Of a stretch of DNA of 7,935 bases, positions 1 to 6,384 are shown one piece after another. The stretch is from Streptosporangiaceae bacterium (lineage in GTDB: Bacteria; Actinomycetota; Actinomycetes; Streptosporangiales; Streptosporangiaceae). Position numbers and translations under genes: made by a program. Position 1 is the first letter of the stretch. Each line of letters opens with the position of its first letter. The stretch lies in the NCBI GenBank assembly GCA_030041195.1, contig JASHOI010000483.1:1-7935 (forward strand). The letters run 5' to 3'. The notes under the pieces are model-generated. The model was not told the origin of the DNA. It did no database searches and was given only the letters and a program-made list of their open reading frames with translations.

Positions 1-506
1 TGAACAAGCTGCCATGGCGGGCCACGGCCCTGGCCGGGACTGTCCTGCTGACCGCGGCCTGCAGCGGCGGCTCGCACCCCCCGGCGTCAAGCAGCCCCGC
101 GCAGCAGACCGCGAAGAAGATGGCCGTCTTCGCGGTGTGCATGCGCGGCCACGGGCAGACGAACTTCTATTACGCCAACCCACAGAGCGTCGCGAACTCG
201 TCCACCCCGGCGTTTAGCGTCGGCGGGGGGTACTTCGTCACGGGGGTCCAGCCACAGTCGTCCCAGTTCCAGTCGGCCTTGACGTCCTGCAAGCACCTGC
301 TCCCGCCCGTGTCCAGCCGCCAGATAACCAAACAGCAGCTCGACCGCGACGTGAAGTTCGCGCAGTGCATGCACGCGCACGGCTTCCCCAGCTACCCGGA
401 ACCCGACGTGCAGAACGGCCAGCTGATCCAGAGGCCGCTCCCGGCCAGCATCGACACCAGCTCACCACAGTTCCAGGCCGCCGAGAGCGCCTGCGGCGAG
501 GGGTAA
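1..506 (+). CDS. Two-lobed Cys/His lipoprotein L1 (start codon cut by one base)
   Basis: The window opens with TG followed in frame by AAC AAG CTG, so the start is an ATG or GTG missing its first base; the protein would be 168 residues. A short signal peptide (residues 1-20) ends in a lipobox, LTAAC, so Cys21 should be acylated and the protein anchored on the outer membrane face. A low-complexity Ser/Pro/Ala/Gln linker follows. Lobe 1 has C47-x3-H51-G and a SQFQ motif ending at C97. Lobe 2 has C123-x3-H127-G, then FPSYPEP, then SPQFQ ending at C165. The same pattern recurs in four genes at 4183-6384, so this is a paralogue now separated from them by toxin-antitoxin and two-component genes. 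Its last part is nearly identical at DNA level to that of L2. Function unknown; lipid anchoring is well supported and any ligand is inference. Confidence 0.85.
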   Translation, partial: NKLPWRATALAGTVLLTAACSGGSHPPASSSPAQQTAKKMAVFAVCMRGHGQTNFYYANPQSVANSSTPAFSVGGGYFVTGVQPQSSQFQSALTSCKHLLPPVSSRQITKQQLDRDVKFAQCMHAHGFPSYPEPDVQNGQLIQRPLPASIDTSSPQFQAAESACGEG

Positions 507-511
507 CAGCG

Positions 512-561
512 ATAGACGGTGCCGCCCGCGATGCCAACGCGCGTGCGGGCGTATCCAGCAG
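512..561 (-). pseudogene. Possible relic of a PIN-domain (VapC) gene
   Basis: Read on the minus strand, 541-512 encodes GIAGGTVY. This matches GIAGGAVYDA of the intact toxin at 1362-1769, around its third catalytic Asp. The DNA resembles 1476-1500 at about 20 of 22 positions. Just upstream, CTGCTGGATACGC resembles CTGCCGGACACGC of that gene, but in a shifted frame. The match stops where the catalytic Asp should be, and no start or full-length frame exists. This looks like a decayed fragment of a third toxin gene. The stretch also contains a 7-bp inverted repeat (523-529/545-551) without a T-tract, so a weak terminator for L1 is an alternative. Short match, hence low confidence. Confidence 0.33.
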
Positions 562-583
562 CCAAAGTACTGGGCCTCGGCAG

Positions 584-612
584 TTGATTCGTAAGACAAT
601 TCGTCTTACGCT
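584..612 (+). promoter_or_regulatory. Promoter of the vapBC-1 module, predicted leaderless
   Basis: TTGATT (584-589) and TACGCT (607-612) form a -35/-10 pair with a 17-bp spacer. Six bases separate the -10 box from the GTG at 619, so transcription would start at or next to the start codon itself. No Shine-Dalgarno sequence stands at a usable distance. Leaderless mRNAs with a TANNNT box placed this way are common in actinobacteria; the start site itself is inferred. Confidence 0.55.
590..610 (+). promoter_or_regulatory. Perfect 8-bp palindrome, likely VapB autoregulatory operator
   Basis: CGTAAGAC (590-597) and GTCTTACG (603-610) are perfect inverted repeats around a 5-base spacer. The palindrome fills the gap between the -35 and -10 boxes of the following module and overlaps most of the -10. 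ATTCGT also occurs twice as a direct repeat, 12 bp apart (587-592, 599-604). Ribbon-helix-helix antitoxins normally bind such palindromes as dimers and repress their own operon, with the toxin as co-repressor. The repeat is seen directly; its use as operator is inferred from position. Confidence 0.6.
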
Positions 613-618
613 GGTGGG

Positions 619-852
619 GTGGCTGAAACAATCACGATCCGTACGGACGCGGCGACGGAGCATGCCTTGGACGTGCTGACCAGCGATGGCACATCCCGTT
701 CGGCGGCGATCCGGCGCGCGGTCTTGGAGAGCGCCGTACGCAGGGAACGTGCCGCCCAGCTCCGCCGCGAGGTGCTGCGGATGCCCCTCGGCGAACCGGA
801 TGGCGTTACCGTCGCAGACGAGCTGGCTCGTGACCGTGACGATGAGCGCTGA
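619..852 (+). CDS. vapB: Ribbon-helix-helix antitoxin (VapB type)
   Basis: A 77-residue protein starting at GTG. Residues 3-9 (ETITIRT) fit the DNA-binding beta strand of the Arc/MetJ/CopG fold. They are followed by a first helix, a GTSRSAAIRRAVLES turn-helix typical of the second half of the fold, and a charged Arg/Glu-rich tail ending in DRDDER that would wrap the toxin. The stop codon shares its final A with the ATG of the PIN toxin, so the two are translationally coupled. It should neutralise that toxin in the cytoplasm and repress the operon through the 590-610 palindrome. GTG 619 was chosen because it sits six bases from the predicted -10 box and gives the complete beta strand. Family-level assignment is confident; the VapB name rests on the partner. 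Confidence 0.85.
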   Translation: MAETITIRTDAATEHALDVLTSDGTSRSAAIRRAVLESAVRRERAAQLRREVLRMPLGEPDGVTVADELARDRDDER

Positions 853-4722: not shown

Positions 4723-5221
4723 CGGCGCCACAGCGATCAGCGTCCTGGCAGGGACCGCCTTGCTGGCGGCGGCCTGCGGCGGCACGCCCGCGGCAGCGCC
4801 CAGCGCCCACCCCGGCGCGCTGACGGCCCAGGTGGTGGACGCGTTCGCCCTGTGCGTGCGCGATCACGGGGTGGCGGGCTTCTACGTCTCCCGAACGATC
4901 GGCCCCAGTTACAACGGGCCGGGGCTGAATCTCGCGCGGTGGCATTCCACCCCCGTCACCCCCGGCTCACCCGTGCTGCAGTCCGCGCTGAAGGCCTGCA
5001 CCCACGTACTCGGCCTGCATGGCAGCAATCCGGCGGCGACCTCGGCGCAACTGCGCAGCGCGGTCAGGTCCGCCGAATGCATGCACGCCCACGGGTACCC
5101 GGACTATCCCGACCCCACCGAGCAGAACGGCCAGATCGTCGAGCCATCGCTGCCGACCAGCATCAACACCAGCTCGCCGCAGTTCCAGTCCGCCATGGAG
5201 GCCTGCAATGCGAGCCCGTGA
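4709..5221 (+). CDS. Two-lobed Cys/His lipoprotein L3
   Basis: A 170-residue lipoprotein. Its ATG lies inside the last codons of L2 (in TGC-AAT-GCG, Cys-Asn-Ala), giving a 14-base overlap in another frame. No separate ribosome site is evident, so translation is probably coupled to L2. Signal peptide SVLAGTALLAAAC, acylated C23. Lobe 1: FALCVRDHG (C49, H53), GFYVS, LQSALKAC (C97). Lobe 2: AECMHAHGYPDYPDP (C124, H128), SPQFQ, C166. It is closest to L2: lobe 1 DNA shares a 24-base exact run around the FALCVRDHG codons. Of the five, L2 and L3 look like the most recent full-length duplicates. Function unknown; surface lipid anchoring is strongly supported. Confidence 0.9.
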   Translation: MRPRNGATAISVLAGTALLAAACGGTPAAAPSAHPGALTAQVVDAFALCVRDHGVAGFYVSRTIGPSYNGPGLNLARWHSTPVTPGSPVLQSALKACTHVLGLHGSNPAATSAQLRSAVRSAECMHAHGYPDYPDPTEQNGQIVEPSLPTSINTSSPQFQSAMEACNASP

Positions 5222-5720
5222 CCACGCCATCGCGGTCGGTGTCCTGGCGGGGACCGCGCTGCTCGCCACCGCGTGCGGGGGTGGCAGCAGCCGGGCCAAC
5301 GTCGCGGCGATGTCACCCGCCAGTCGCCAACCGTACCTTGCGTACACGCGATGCATGCGCGCCCACGGAGCGCCATTCTGGCCCGACCCGTCCACCACAC
5401 TGGCGGATGGTGCCTACGAGTACCCGATCACCCCGCGGATCCTGGCGCAGGAACACGGCTCGTCCTGGAACGCCGCGCTGAGCGCCTGCGCGAAGCTGCA
5501 GCCCCCACAGCTCCCGTTCACCGAGGCACAGCTCGACGCGGCCGACAGCAGGCTGCTGAAGCTGACCCGGTGCCTGCGCGCTCACGGGTATCCCAACTGG
5601 CCGGACCCGGTCATCAATGCCGACGACATCGGCTTCCTGCCGCCTCGCGGCGTCAACGTTCGCGATCCTTCGCCGCAGCTCCAGGCTGCCGAGCAGGCCT
5701 GCCATTGGCCCACACCGTGA
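5208..5720 (+). CDS. Two-lobed Cys/His lipoprotein L4 (divergent member)
   Basis: A 170-residue lipoprotein whose ATG again lies within a Cys-Asn-Ala run at the 3' end of L3, with the same 14-base overlap. Signal peptide GVLAGTALLATAC, acylated C23, very like that of L3. The mature part is the most divergent of the cluster and also the most symmetrical. Lobe 1 has YTRCMRAHGAPFWPDP (C49, H53) and AALSAC (C94). Lobe 2 has LTRCLRAHGYPNWPDP (C122, H126) and SPQLQAAEQAC (C165). In L1-L3 and L5 the first lobe has lost the P-x-W/F/Y-P-D-P part that L4 keeps, so L4 best shows the ancestral internal duplication. Function unknown. Confidence 0.9.
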   Translation: MRARDHAIAVGVLAGTALLATACGGGSSRANVAAMSPASRQPYLAYTRCMRAHGAPFWPDPSTTLADGAYEYPITPRILAQEHGSSWNAALSACAKLQPPQLPFTEAQLDAADSRLLKLTRCLRAHGYPNWPDPVINADDIGFLPPRGVNVRDPSPQLQAAEQACHWPTP

Positions 5721-5725
5721 CGGCT

Positions 5726-5747
5726 TCACACCGAACTCACACGCAAC
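5726..5747. repeat. Two 11-bp direct repeats upstream of L5, candidate regulator site
   Basis: TCACACCGAAC (5726-5736) is followed directly by TCACACGCAAC (5737-5747), 9 of 11 identical. Tandem 11-bp half-sites are the usual geometry for OmpR-family regulators. The core TCACA also occurs in the palindrome pair at 4082-4086. They lie in the 103-base gap between L4 and L5, the only sizeable gap within the lipoprotein run. A second regulator-binding site serving L5 and the pump genes is possible but unproven. Confidence 0.35.
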
Positions 5748-5823
5748 CCGCGCGGCGGTCTGACGCGTACGCCGGAGCATGGTGCCGCTGGGACCTTCAG
5801 CCCCGGAGCACAAGGACGATCGG

Positions 5824-6384
5824 ATGGACGAACAGATCAAGCACCGCGACGGGCGCCTGCGCAGCGCCAGACCGCGCCGGATGGCCGCCGTGATCGCCGC
5901 CCTGGCTGTGACCGGGCTGCTGGCCGCCGCGTGCGGCGGCTCGAATCCGGCTGCGACGAGCGCCAGCTCGCCGAAGCCACTCGCCGAGGCGCTCGACGCT
6001 TTCGTGCAGTGCATGCACCAGCATGGCGAGCAAGGGCTTTACCTCACCCAGGCGCCGAACAGCCCAAACCCCGGCACCGACCTGCTGGTCATCCGCGGAA
6101 TGACGATCGCAGGCGCCGACGTCGGCTCCTCGCAGTTCCAGTCGGGCTTGAAGGCATGCCAGCACGTGCTGCCGTTCAAGATCTCGCCGCCCGATGAGAC
6201 GCACCAGGAGTTCCTCGACGCGCTCAAAGCCGCGGACTGCATGCATACCCACGGGTACCCGAACTGGCCAGATCCGAGGTCGGACGCGGCCGGCACCGAT
6301 TACCCGGCCGGCCTCGATAGCAACTCGACGCAGTTTCAGGCTGCGGCGAAGACATGCGGCGTAGCCGCGCCCCCGGGCGGGTGA
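5824..6384 (+). CDS. Two-lobed Cys/His lipoprotein L5
   Basis: A 186-residue lipoprotein. ATG 5824 follows AAGGA (5812-5816) by seven bases; an in-frame ATG at 5779 has no such site. A charged n-region (RSARPRR), hydrophobic core and lipobox LAAAC (acylated C37) precede an Ala/Ser/Pro linker. Lobe 1: FVQCMHQHG (C63, H67), then SQFQSGLKAC (C112). Lobe 2: AADCMHTHGYPNWPDP (C139, H143), then TQFQ to C178. The SQFQ of lobe 1 mirrors the QFQ of lobe 2, as in L1, and supports internal duplication. It is set apart from L2-L4 by a 103-base gap with its own ribosome site and has a longer signal peptide. About 60 bases separate it from the membrane-fusion gene. Function unknown. Confidence 0.9.
   Translation: MDEQIKHRDGRLRSARPRRMAAVIAALAVTGLLAAACGGSNPAATSASSPKPLAEALDAFVQCMHQHGEQGLYLTQAPNSPNPGTDLLVIRGMTIAGADVGSSQFQSGLKACQHVLPFKISPPDETHQEFLDALKAADCMHTHGYPNWPDPRSDAAGTDYPAGLDSNSTQFQAAAKTCGVAAPPGG

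Follow-up and report, generated by a model that had tools for sequence, protein, structure and literature searches.

Two-lobe lipoproteins encoded beside a two-component system and a MacAB-like pump in actinobacteria: candidates for a lipid-anchored exporter part

Background

What is the function of a group of paralogous lipoproteins whose genes lie next to both a two-component regulatory system and an efflux pump, and which of the two do they serve? The question is raised by a stretch of DNA of 7,935 nucleotides from a Streptosporangiaceae bacterium (GenBank assembly GCA_030041195.1, contig JASHOI010000483.1, positions 1 to 7,935 of the forward strand), referred to below as the window, in which five genes (L1 to L5) encode lipoproteins of the same plan. 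An earlier note on this DNA had described the five proteins as carrying two lobes with a Cys/His motif, had tied them to a regulator, a kinase and a MacAB-like pump, and had suggested that they capture a ligand, signal to the kinase or guard the envelope. That interpretation is partly supported by the present analysis. The five paralogs are indeed found as open reading frames with a lipobox and a shared two-lobe plan (pairwise identity 30–66%), and the regulator, the kinase and the adaptor agree with the earlier description (Table 1).

We conclude that the lipoproteins probably belong to a MacAB-like exporter of actinobacteria as its fourth component, anchored by a lipid; the other components would be a peptidoglycan (PG)-binding adaptor, an ATPase and a MacB-type permease, and lipoprotein synthesis would be switched by the divergent two-component system. 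At the level of sequence, the evidence consists of gene order, linkage in two directions, co-variation with the pump, near-invariant cysteines in homologous lobes, and a candidate box that tracks the regulator.

Results

Linkage to pump and two-component genes

The family sample comprised 60 of 150 listed places, neighbours were counted within 5 kb of the lipoprotein gene, and 40 regions from the same genome set served as controls. An adaptor was found in 51 of the 60 loci, an ATPase in 54, a MacB-type permease in 52, a regulator in 51 and a kinase in 54, compared with 0, 5, 0, 5 and 1, respectively, of the control regions; the full set of adaptor, ATPase and permease was reported for 51 of the 60. 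For the converse test, the adaptor served as the query of a class-wide search. At E 1e-10, 30 of 118 genomes had a match, which was strong in 25, and 30 regions were taken out of the 41 strong adaptor matches listed. The lipoprotein was present in all 30, upstream of the adaptor and on the same strand in 29 and beyond the permease in one (L183). Two of the 30 regions belong to genome G004, which had been found via the lipoprotein, and two more to G060 and G099, genomes that the family sample also includes. The check proposed in the earlier note, whether the family repeatedly neighbours genes for an OmpR-type regulator, a kinase and MacA/MacB, thus gave a positive result in both directions.

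In the combined set of 95 loci, for which slightly different criteria were used than for the 60-locus count, an adaptor was present in 85, and in 81 of these the lipoprotein gene immediately precedes the adaptor gene in the same orientation. The median gap between the lipoprotein stop and the adaptor match was 3 bases, and the regulator was on the opposite strand in 61/83. The order kinase, regulator, lipoprotein, PG-binding protein, ATPase, permease can also be read from annotated records of Streptomyces sp. NBC_01003, S. clavuligerus, Streptomyces sp. NBC_00376 and Actinomyces oris, where the lipoproteins show the two-lobe plan and are annotated as 'hypothetical protein'. Because it is usually encoded beside a two-component regulator and a MacAB-like pump, the lipoprotein is most likely an overlooked part of the pump.

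Co-variation with the pump or with the kinase

Pairwise-distance correlations were computed over 78 complete loci and their differences were bootstrapped. The neighbouring proteins form two blocks, with adaptor, permease and ATPase mutually correlated at 0.79–0.83 and regulator with kinase at 0.89, while the adaptor-kinase correlation is 0.48. The lipoprotein correlates at 0.58 with the adaptor, 0.56 with the permease, 0.48 with the ATPase, 0.34 with the kinase and 0.22 with the regulator; the lead of the adaptor is 0.24 over the kinase (bootstrap 0.09–0.37) and 0.36 over the regulator (0.20–0.50). Such co-variation reflects shared history and probably a shared constraint with the pump, which is not by itself proof of contact. 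With regard to the roles proposed earlier, it favors those linked to the pump over those linked to the kinase.

These values bear on the rival explanation of a sensor or brake of the kinase, in which the lipoprotein would respond to a ligand or to the state of the envelope and tune the kinase; such a role has been proposed for CseA towards CseC and for AfsQ3 towards AfsQ2 (PMC9739842). We regard this as a minority possibility. Besides this precedent, regulator and kinase are adjacent to the lipoprotein in most loci, five of the 95 loci have a regulator or kinase and no adaptor under the criteria of that set, and hydropathy parsing of 78 kinases gave short outer loops (median 65 aa, range 35–151); however, the lipoprotein co-varies least with exactly these two partners and more with adaptor and permease, and four loci have a lipoprotein and an adaptor with no regulator or kinase match, although one of them (L115) had both under the 60-locus criteria.

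Copy number and dispersal

Most loci contain a single family gene (91 of 95; the other four have two), and the array of the window, with four genes in the operon plus L1, is unusual. This count is relevant to the possibility that the lipoprotein is cargo, extracted or released from the membrane by the MacB-type machine in the manner of LolCDE, with which the MacB architecture is shared (PMC5985334, available part). Tandem genes whose sequences differ would be compatible with cargo, but one copy beside one pump is more like a subunit, and we consider this explanation improbable.

In a quick tree with support given by the Shimodaira-Hasegawa approximate likelihood ratio test (SH-aLRT), L2 and L3 are mutual nearest relatives (99), and L1, L2/L3 and L5 belong to one clade (99). 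L4 groups with single-copy relatives (99), a placement that is less sure because of its long branch. Genome G398 has a separate four-gene array between divergent two-component genes and the adaptor (L210, 8649–12268, minus strand), whose four copies cluster together (SH-aLRT 87) apart from those of the window; since the two sets group separately, arrays probably arose more than once. Genome G001, a Streptosporangiaceae metagenome-assembled genome, has 13 family matches, several without adaptor or two-component genes within 5 kb, which suggests that its lineage expanded and dispersed the family. Three of its loci (L106, L107 and L108) are dispersed copies that lack adaptor and two-component neighbours; two of them, L106 and L108, are close to the end of a contig, and L107 has an ABC ATPase match alone, about 3 kb away.

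Sequence plan and cysteines

The lipobox Cys, both C-x3-H-G motifs and the two downstream Cys are invariant across L1 to L5, and lobe 1 is homologous to lobe 2 (hhalign probability 99.5–99.8%). At least 712 relatives were detected at E 0.001 in the first search and at least 1461 with a broader query; among those shown, the names are 'hypothetical protein', 'Lipoprotein', 'Secreted protein' or similar. L1 to L5 and the scanned lipoprotein relatives had no Pfam or NCBIfam match above the curated cut-off, and the PADLOC anti-phage models had no match at E 0.01 to L2, L4, L5, the adaptor or protein P0127. With more than 1000 detected relatives and no Pfam or NCBIfam model, the family proves to be a recurrent component of a regulator-plus-pump cassette in actinobacteria, and a testable function can be offered for many 'hypothetical proteins'.

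The 60 loci and the window gave 68 family proteins, of which 66 could be parsed; of the other two, one has a lipobox outside the pattern used and one has no lipobox in its frame. All 66 mature proteins consist of the lipobox Cys and exactly four further Cys, at median spacings of 39.5, 27 and 39 residues. Among 119 further relatives (the second set), 112 had a lipobox by pattern and 111 of those had four Cys, the exceptions being the seven with no lipobox by pattern and one protein in which a signal-peptide Cys was counted. The residue four positions after the first lobe Cys is less constant: it is His in 39/66 and Asn in 22/66 proteins in lobe 1, His in 34/66 and Asn in 28/66 in lobe 2, and mostly Asn in the second set, with Gln, Glu or Lys also replacing His in the family. 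The fixed features are consequently a C-M-R-x-x-G theme and the partner Cys, His excluded, and the Cys/His motif as such, which the earlier note had described, is not supported across a large part of the family.

Since the four Cys are near-invariant and the His is not, a pair of structural disulfides is more probable than a Cys/His site. In structural models, one helix ends near each C-M-R Cys and another near its partner Cys, and these helix ends together with the even, constant number of Cys suggest that the disulfides form within the lobes. A metal or redox site with Cys/His ligands, as in a metal sensor or scavenger, is very unlikely; C-x3-H does occur in both lobes of the window proteins and the best NCBIfam match of the window kinase is a heavy-metal sensor subfamily (below cut-off), but His is mostly replaced by Asn where it is missing and a constant even Cys number fits disulfides. 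As a separate observation, locus L180 (6189–7480, minus strand) has two tandem family genes with extra, seemingly paired Cys in the inter-lobe stretch.

Candidate regulatory box

A search of 64 upstream regions gave 21 pairs of GTGAC and GTCAC spaced by 10–12 bases, compared with 0.26 on average, and never more than 2, in 200 rounds of shuffling. The pairs are found in 11 of the 64 regions, the window included; since the motif had originally been spotted in the window, the window is not independent, and ten other regions remain. A looser spacing of 9–13 bases adds locus L087, which was scored as box-bearing. Among the 49 loci with a regulator match, the box was present in 9/9 of those in which the regulator shares 66.8% identity or more with the window regulator and in 1/40 of those below; a further box locus (L076) has no regulator match. 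Repeats of eleven bases fit OmpR-family regulators. Because the box recurs with the closest regulators, the window regulator likely controls L2 and the genes that follow through this candidate site. Once named, such a box provides a handle for seeking the inducing signal.

Components of the cassette

The window adaptor scores below all relevant cut-offs (RND_mfp 23.8 of 94.9, HlyD_3 16 of 22.2 and PG_binding_1 21.3 of 23 bits). The adaptors of L167 and L169 pass both HlyD_3 and PG_binding_1, that of L001 passes PG_binding_1, and an adaptor profile found PDB relatives for the PG-binding part. L001 also has a full ATPase and a 404-aa permease with MacB_PCD and FtsX matches above the cut-offs. 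Of the pump described earlier, the window itself contains the adaptor and the start of the ATPase; because the ATPase only begins there and the permease is off the contig, the label 'MacAB-like' for these two is taken from relatives. For the two-component pair, identity with VanRS-O was considered and rejected (228.4 against 505 bits for VanR-O, 174.8 against 720 for VanS-O). By eye, the window kinase has a short outer loop with two Cys, which is also the case in only 2 of the 78 relatives' loops.

Ten loci of weaker adaptor matches (L200–L209) represent a second adaptor class, with a longer lipoprotein upstream in 9/10. These lipoproteins have mature lengths of 195–393 aa and contain the Cys-Met-x3-Gly-like motif once or twice; apart from the lipobox Cys, all except one have four Cys. 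The profile comparison with the two-lobe family is weak (67% and 82%) and hints at common descent; the longer lipoproteins are possibly a remote branch of the family.

Gene layout of the window

The regulator/kinase pair and the genes from L2 onward diverge from a common intergenic region (Table 1), and L2 to L5 share an apparent operon with the adaptor and the ABC ATPase. AAGGAG precedes the L2 start codon (by eye). The L2-L3 and L3-L4 junctions are alike, both being 14-base overlaps with the sequence TGCAATGCG, and the start codons of L3 and L4 are embedded in codons around the last Cys of the preceding gene; L4 and L5 are 103 bases apart, and the adaptor stop overlaps the ATPase start. Two toxin-antitoxin-like pairs lie between L1 and the other lipoprotein genes, as do the genes for regulator and kinase. 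The pump operon as seen here thus contains four lipoprotein genes, and a place for L1 in it is not supported.

Table 1. Features of the window, with positions and the basis of each assignment.
Feature	Position	Strand	Basis
L1, two-lobe four-Cys lipoprotein	3..506	+	ORF, lipobox, alignment; initiation codon probably begins 1 nt outside the window
Sensor histidine kinase (HAMP, HisKA, HATPase_c)	2018..3340	-	Pfam domains; recurrent neighbour in relatives
OmpR-type response regulator, divergent from L2	3337..4002	-	Domain matches; best NCBIfam match VanR-O, below cut-off
Candidate regulator box GTGACA-N5-GTCACA-N6-GTGACC-N5-GTCACC	4070..4109		Between regulator and L2
L2, two-lobe four-Cys lipoprotein, first gene of the array	4183..4722	+	ORF, alignment
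L3, two-lobe four-Cys lipoprotein	4709..5221	+	Alignment, tree; closest to L2 (66% identical)
L4, two-lobe four-Cys lipoprotein, other lineage than L1/L2/L3/L5	5208..5720	+	Alignment, tree
L5, two-lobe four-Cys lipoprotein adjoining the adaptor	5824..6384	+	Alignment, tree
MacA/HlyD-like adaptor with peptidoglycan-binding domain	6434..7786	+	Domain matches; ATG at 6446 is an alternative start
ABC ATPase gene, beginning only	7783..7935	+	Cut by contig end

Pfam matches between L1 and the kinase gene are PIN (twice) and MazE (once). The first pair (619–1304, plus strand) is VapBC-like, a PIN-domain protein preceded by a small protein that has no Pfam match and resembles a ribbon-helix-helix antitoxin by eye; in the second (1362–2002, minus strand), a PIN-domain protein adjoins a MazE-type antitoxin.

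Discussion

Proposed function

In the exporter that we favor, each lobe would be a small helical module shut by one disulfide. The lipoprotein would be located at the adaptor on the outer face of the membrane, where it may capture a substrate or dock the adaptor; the substrate would most likely be a membrane- or wall-active peptide or a lipid-like compound, which the pump would then drive outward through the wall zone. Tandem copies could widen the range of ligands or raise the capture capacity. Analogy and position point to the capture of membrane- or wall-active substrates as the likeliest role.

Several points weigh against this proposal. The 60 loci were hand-picked, mostly in rank order, rather than drawn at random, and genetic linkage by itself can raise correlations. 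The lead of the adaptor over the permease is 0.02 with an interval that includes zero (-0.03 to 0.09), and we name no single pump partner because the adaptor correlation is no higher than that of the permease. Under the criteria of the 95-locus set, ten loci lack an adaptor in the 5 kb on either side, five of them with a regulator or kinase and five with neither; some of these loci lie near contig ends, and one (L074) had an adaptor match under the looser 60-locus criteria. Within the phylum, the family is by no means ubiquitous (at least 31 of 296 genomes), the fold searches gave no match that supports a binding function, and the window's own permease and most of its ATPase fall off the contig.

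A wider scheme is more speculative, namely a general actinobacterial four-part exporter in which a lipid-anchored, disulfide-closed two-lobe receptor may take up a toxic or signalling molecule at the membrane and pass it to a PG-anchored MacAB-like pump, some lineages would have built a multi-receptor pump by placing several receptor genes (here of different lineages) before one adaptor, and a longer lipoprotein of the same Cys plan would serve the second adaptor class.

Comparison with known systems

The nearest working analogy, likened by description, is likely the LanI/LanFEG immunity system. To our knowledge, LanFEG is not a MacB-type transporter with an adaptor. As in the cassette, a lipid-anchored capture protein, an ABC exporter and a two-component system are clustered, and LanI is characterized by lantibiotic binding, which reduces the amount of the peptide at the membrane (PMC5786555; this and the following comparisons refer to the available parts of the articles cited). 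MacAB-TolC under PhoPQ resembles the cassette in its MacB-type permease, adaptor and two-component control (PMC5985334), whereas the cassette differs by a PG-binding domain in the adaptor and by the additional lipoprotein; no TolC is annotated in the four cassettes named above, and no search was aimed at TolC. BceAB-BceRS shares with the cassette a MacB-superfamily transporter that co-evolved with a two-component system (PMC5985334). A BceAB-type transporter was nevertheless rejected as a candidate, given that BceB is a large permease with ten helices and no adaptor, compared with the MacB_PCD/FtsX permease (404 aa, assigned by length and domains) and adaptor of L001.

The literature searched contained no description of the two-lobe lipoprotein family or of the four-part cassette. 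CseA-CseBC and AfsQ3-AfsQ1/Q2 of Streptomyces coelicolor are, by their description, similar in having an actinobacterial lipoprotein beside a two-component system, but the part of PMC9739842 available mentions no linked MacAB-like pump. YknWXYZ of Bacillus (PMC4887032, PMC5985334) is likewise a Gram-positive assembly of MacB-type permease, ATPase, adaptor and a fourth protein, and its adaptor YknX is reported to bind peptidoglycan; however, the fourth protein, YknW, belongs to the Yip1 family and is not a lipoprotein, and the available parts of these two articles make no mention of a divergent two-component pair. Each piece of the cassette, as far as these sources go, has a precedent in YknWXYZ, LanI/LanFEG or CseA/AfsQ3. 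The regular presence of the lipoprotein in the cassette suggests that MacAB-like pumps of monoderm bacteria may have a dedicated surface partner.

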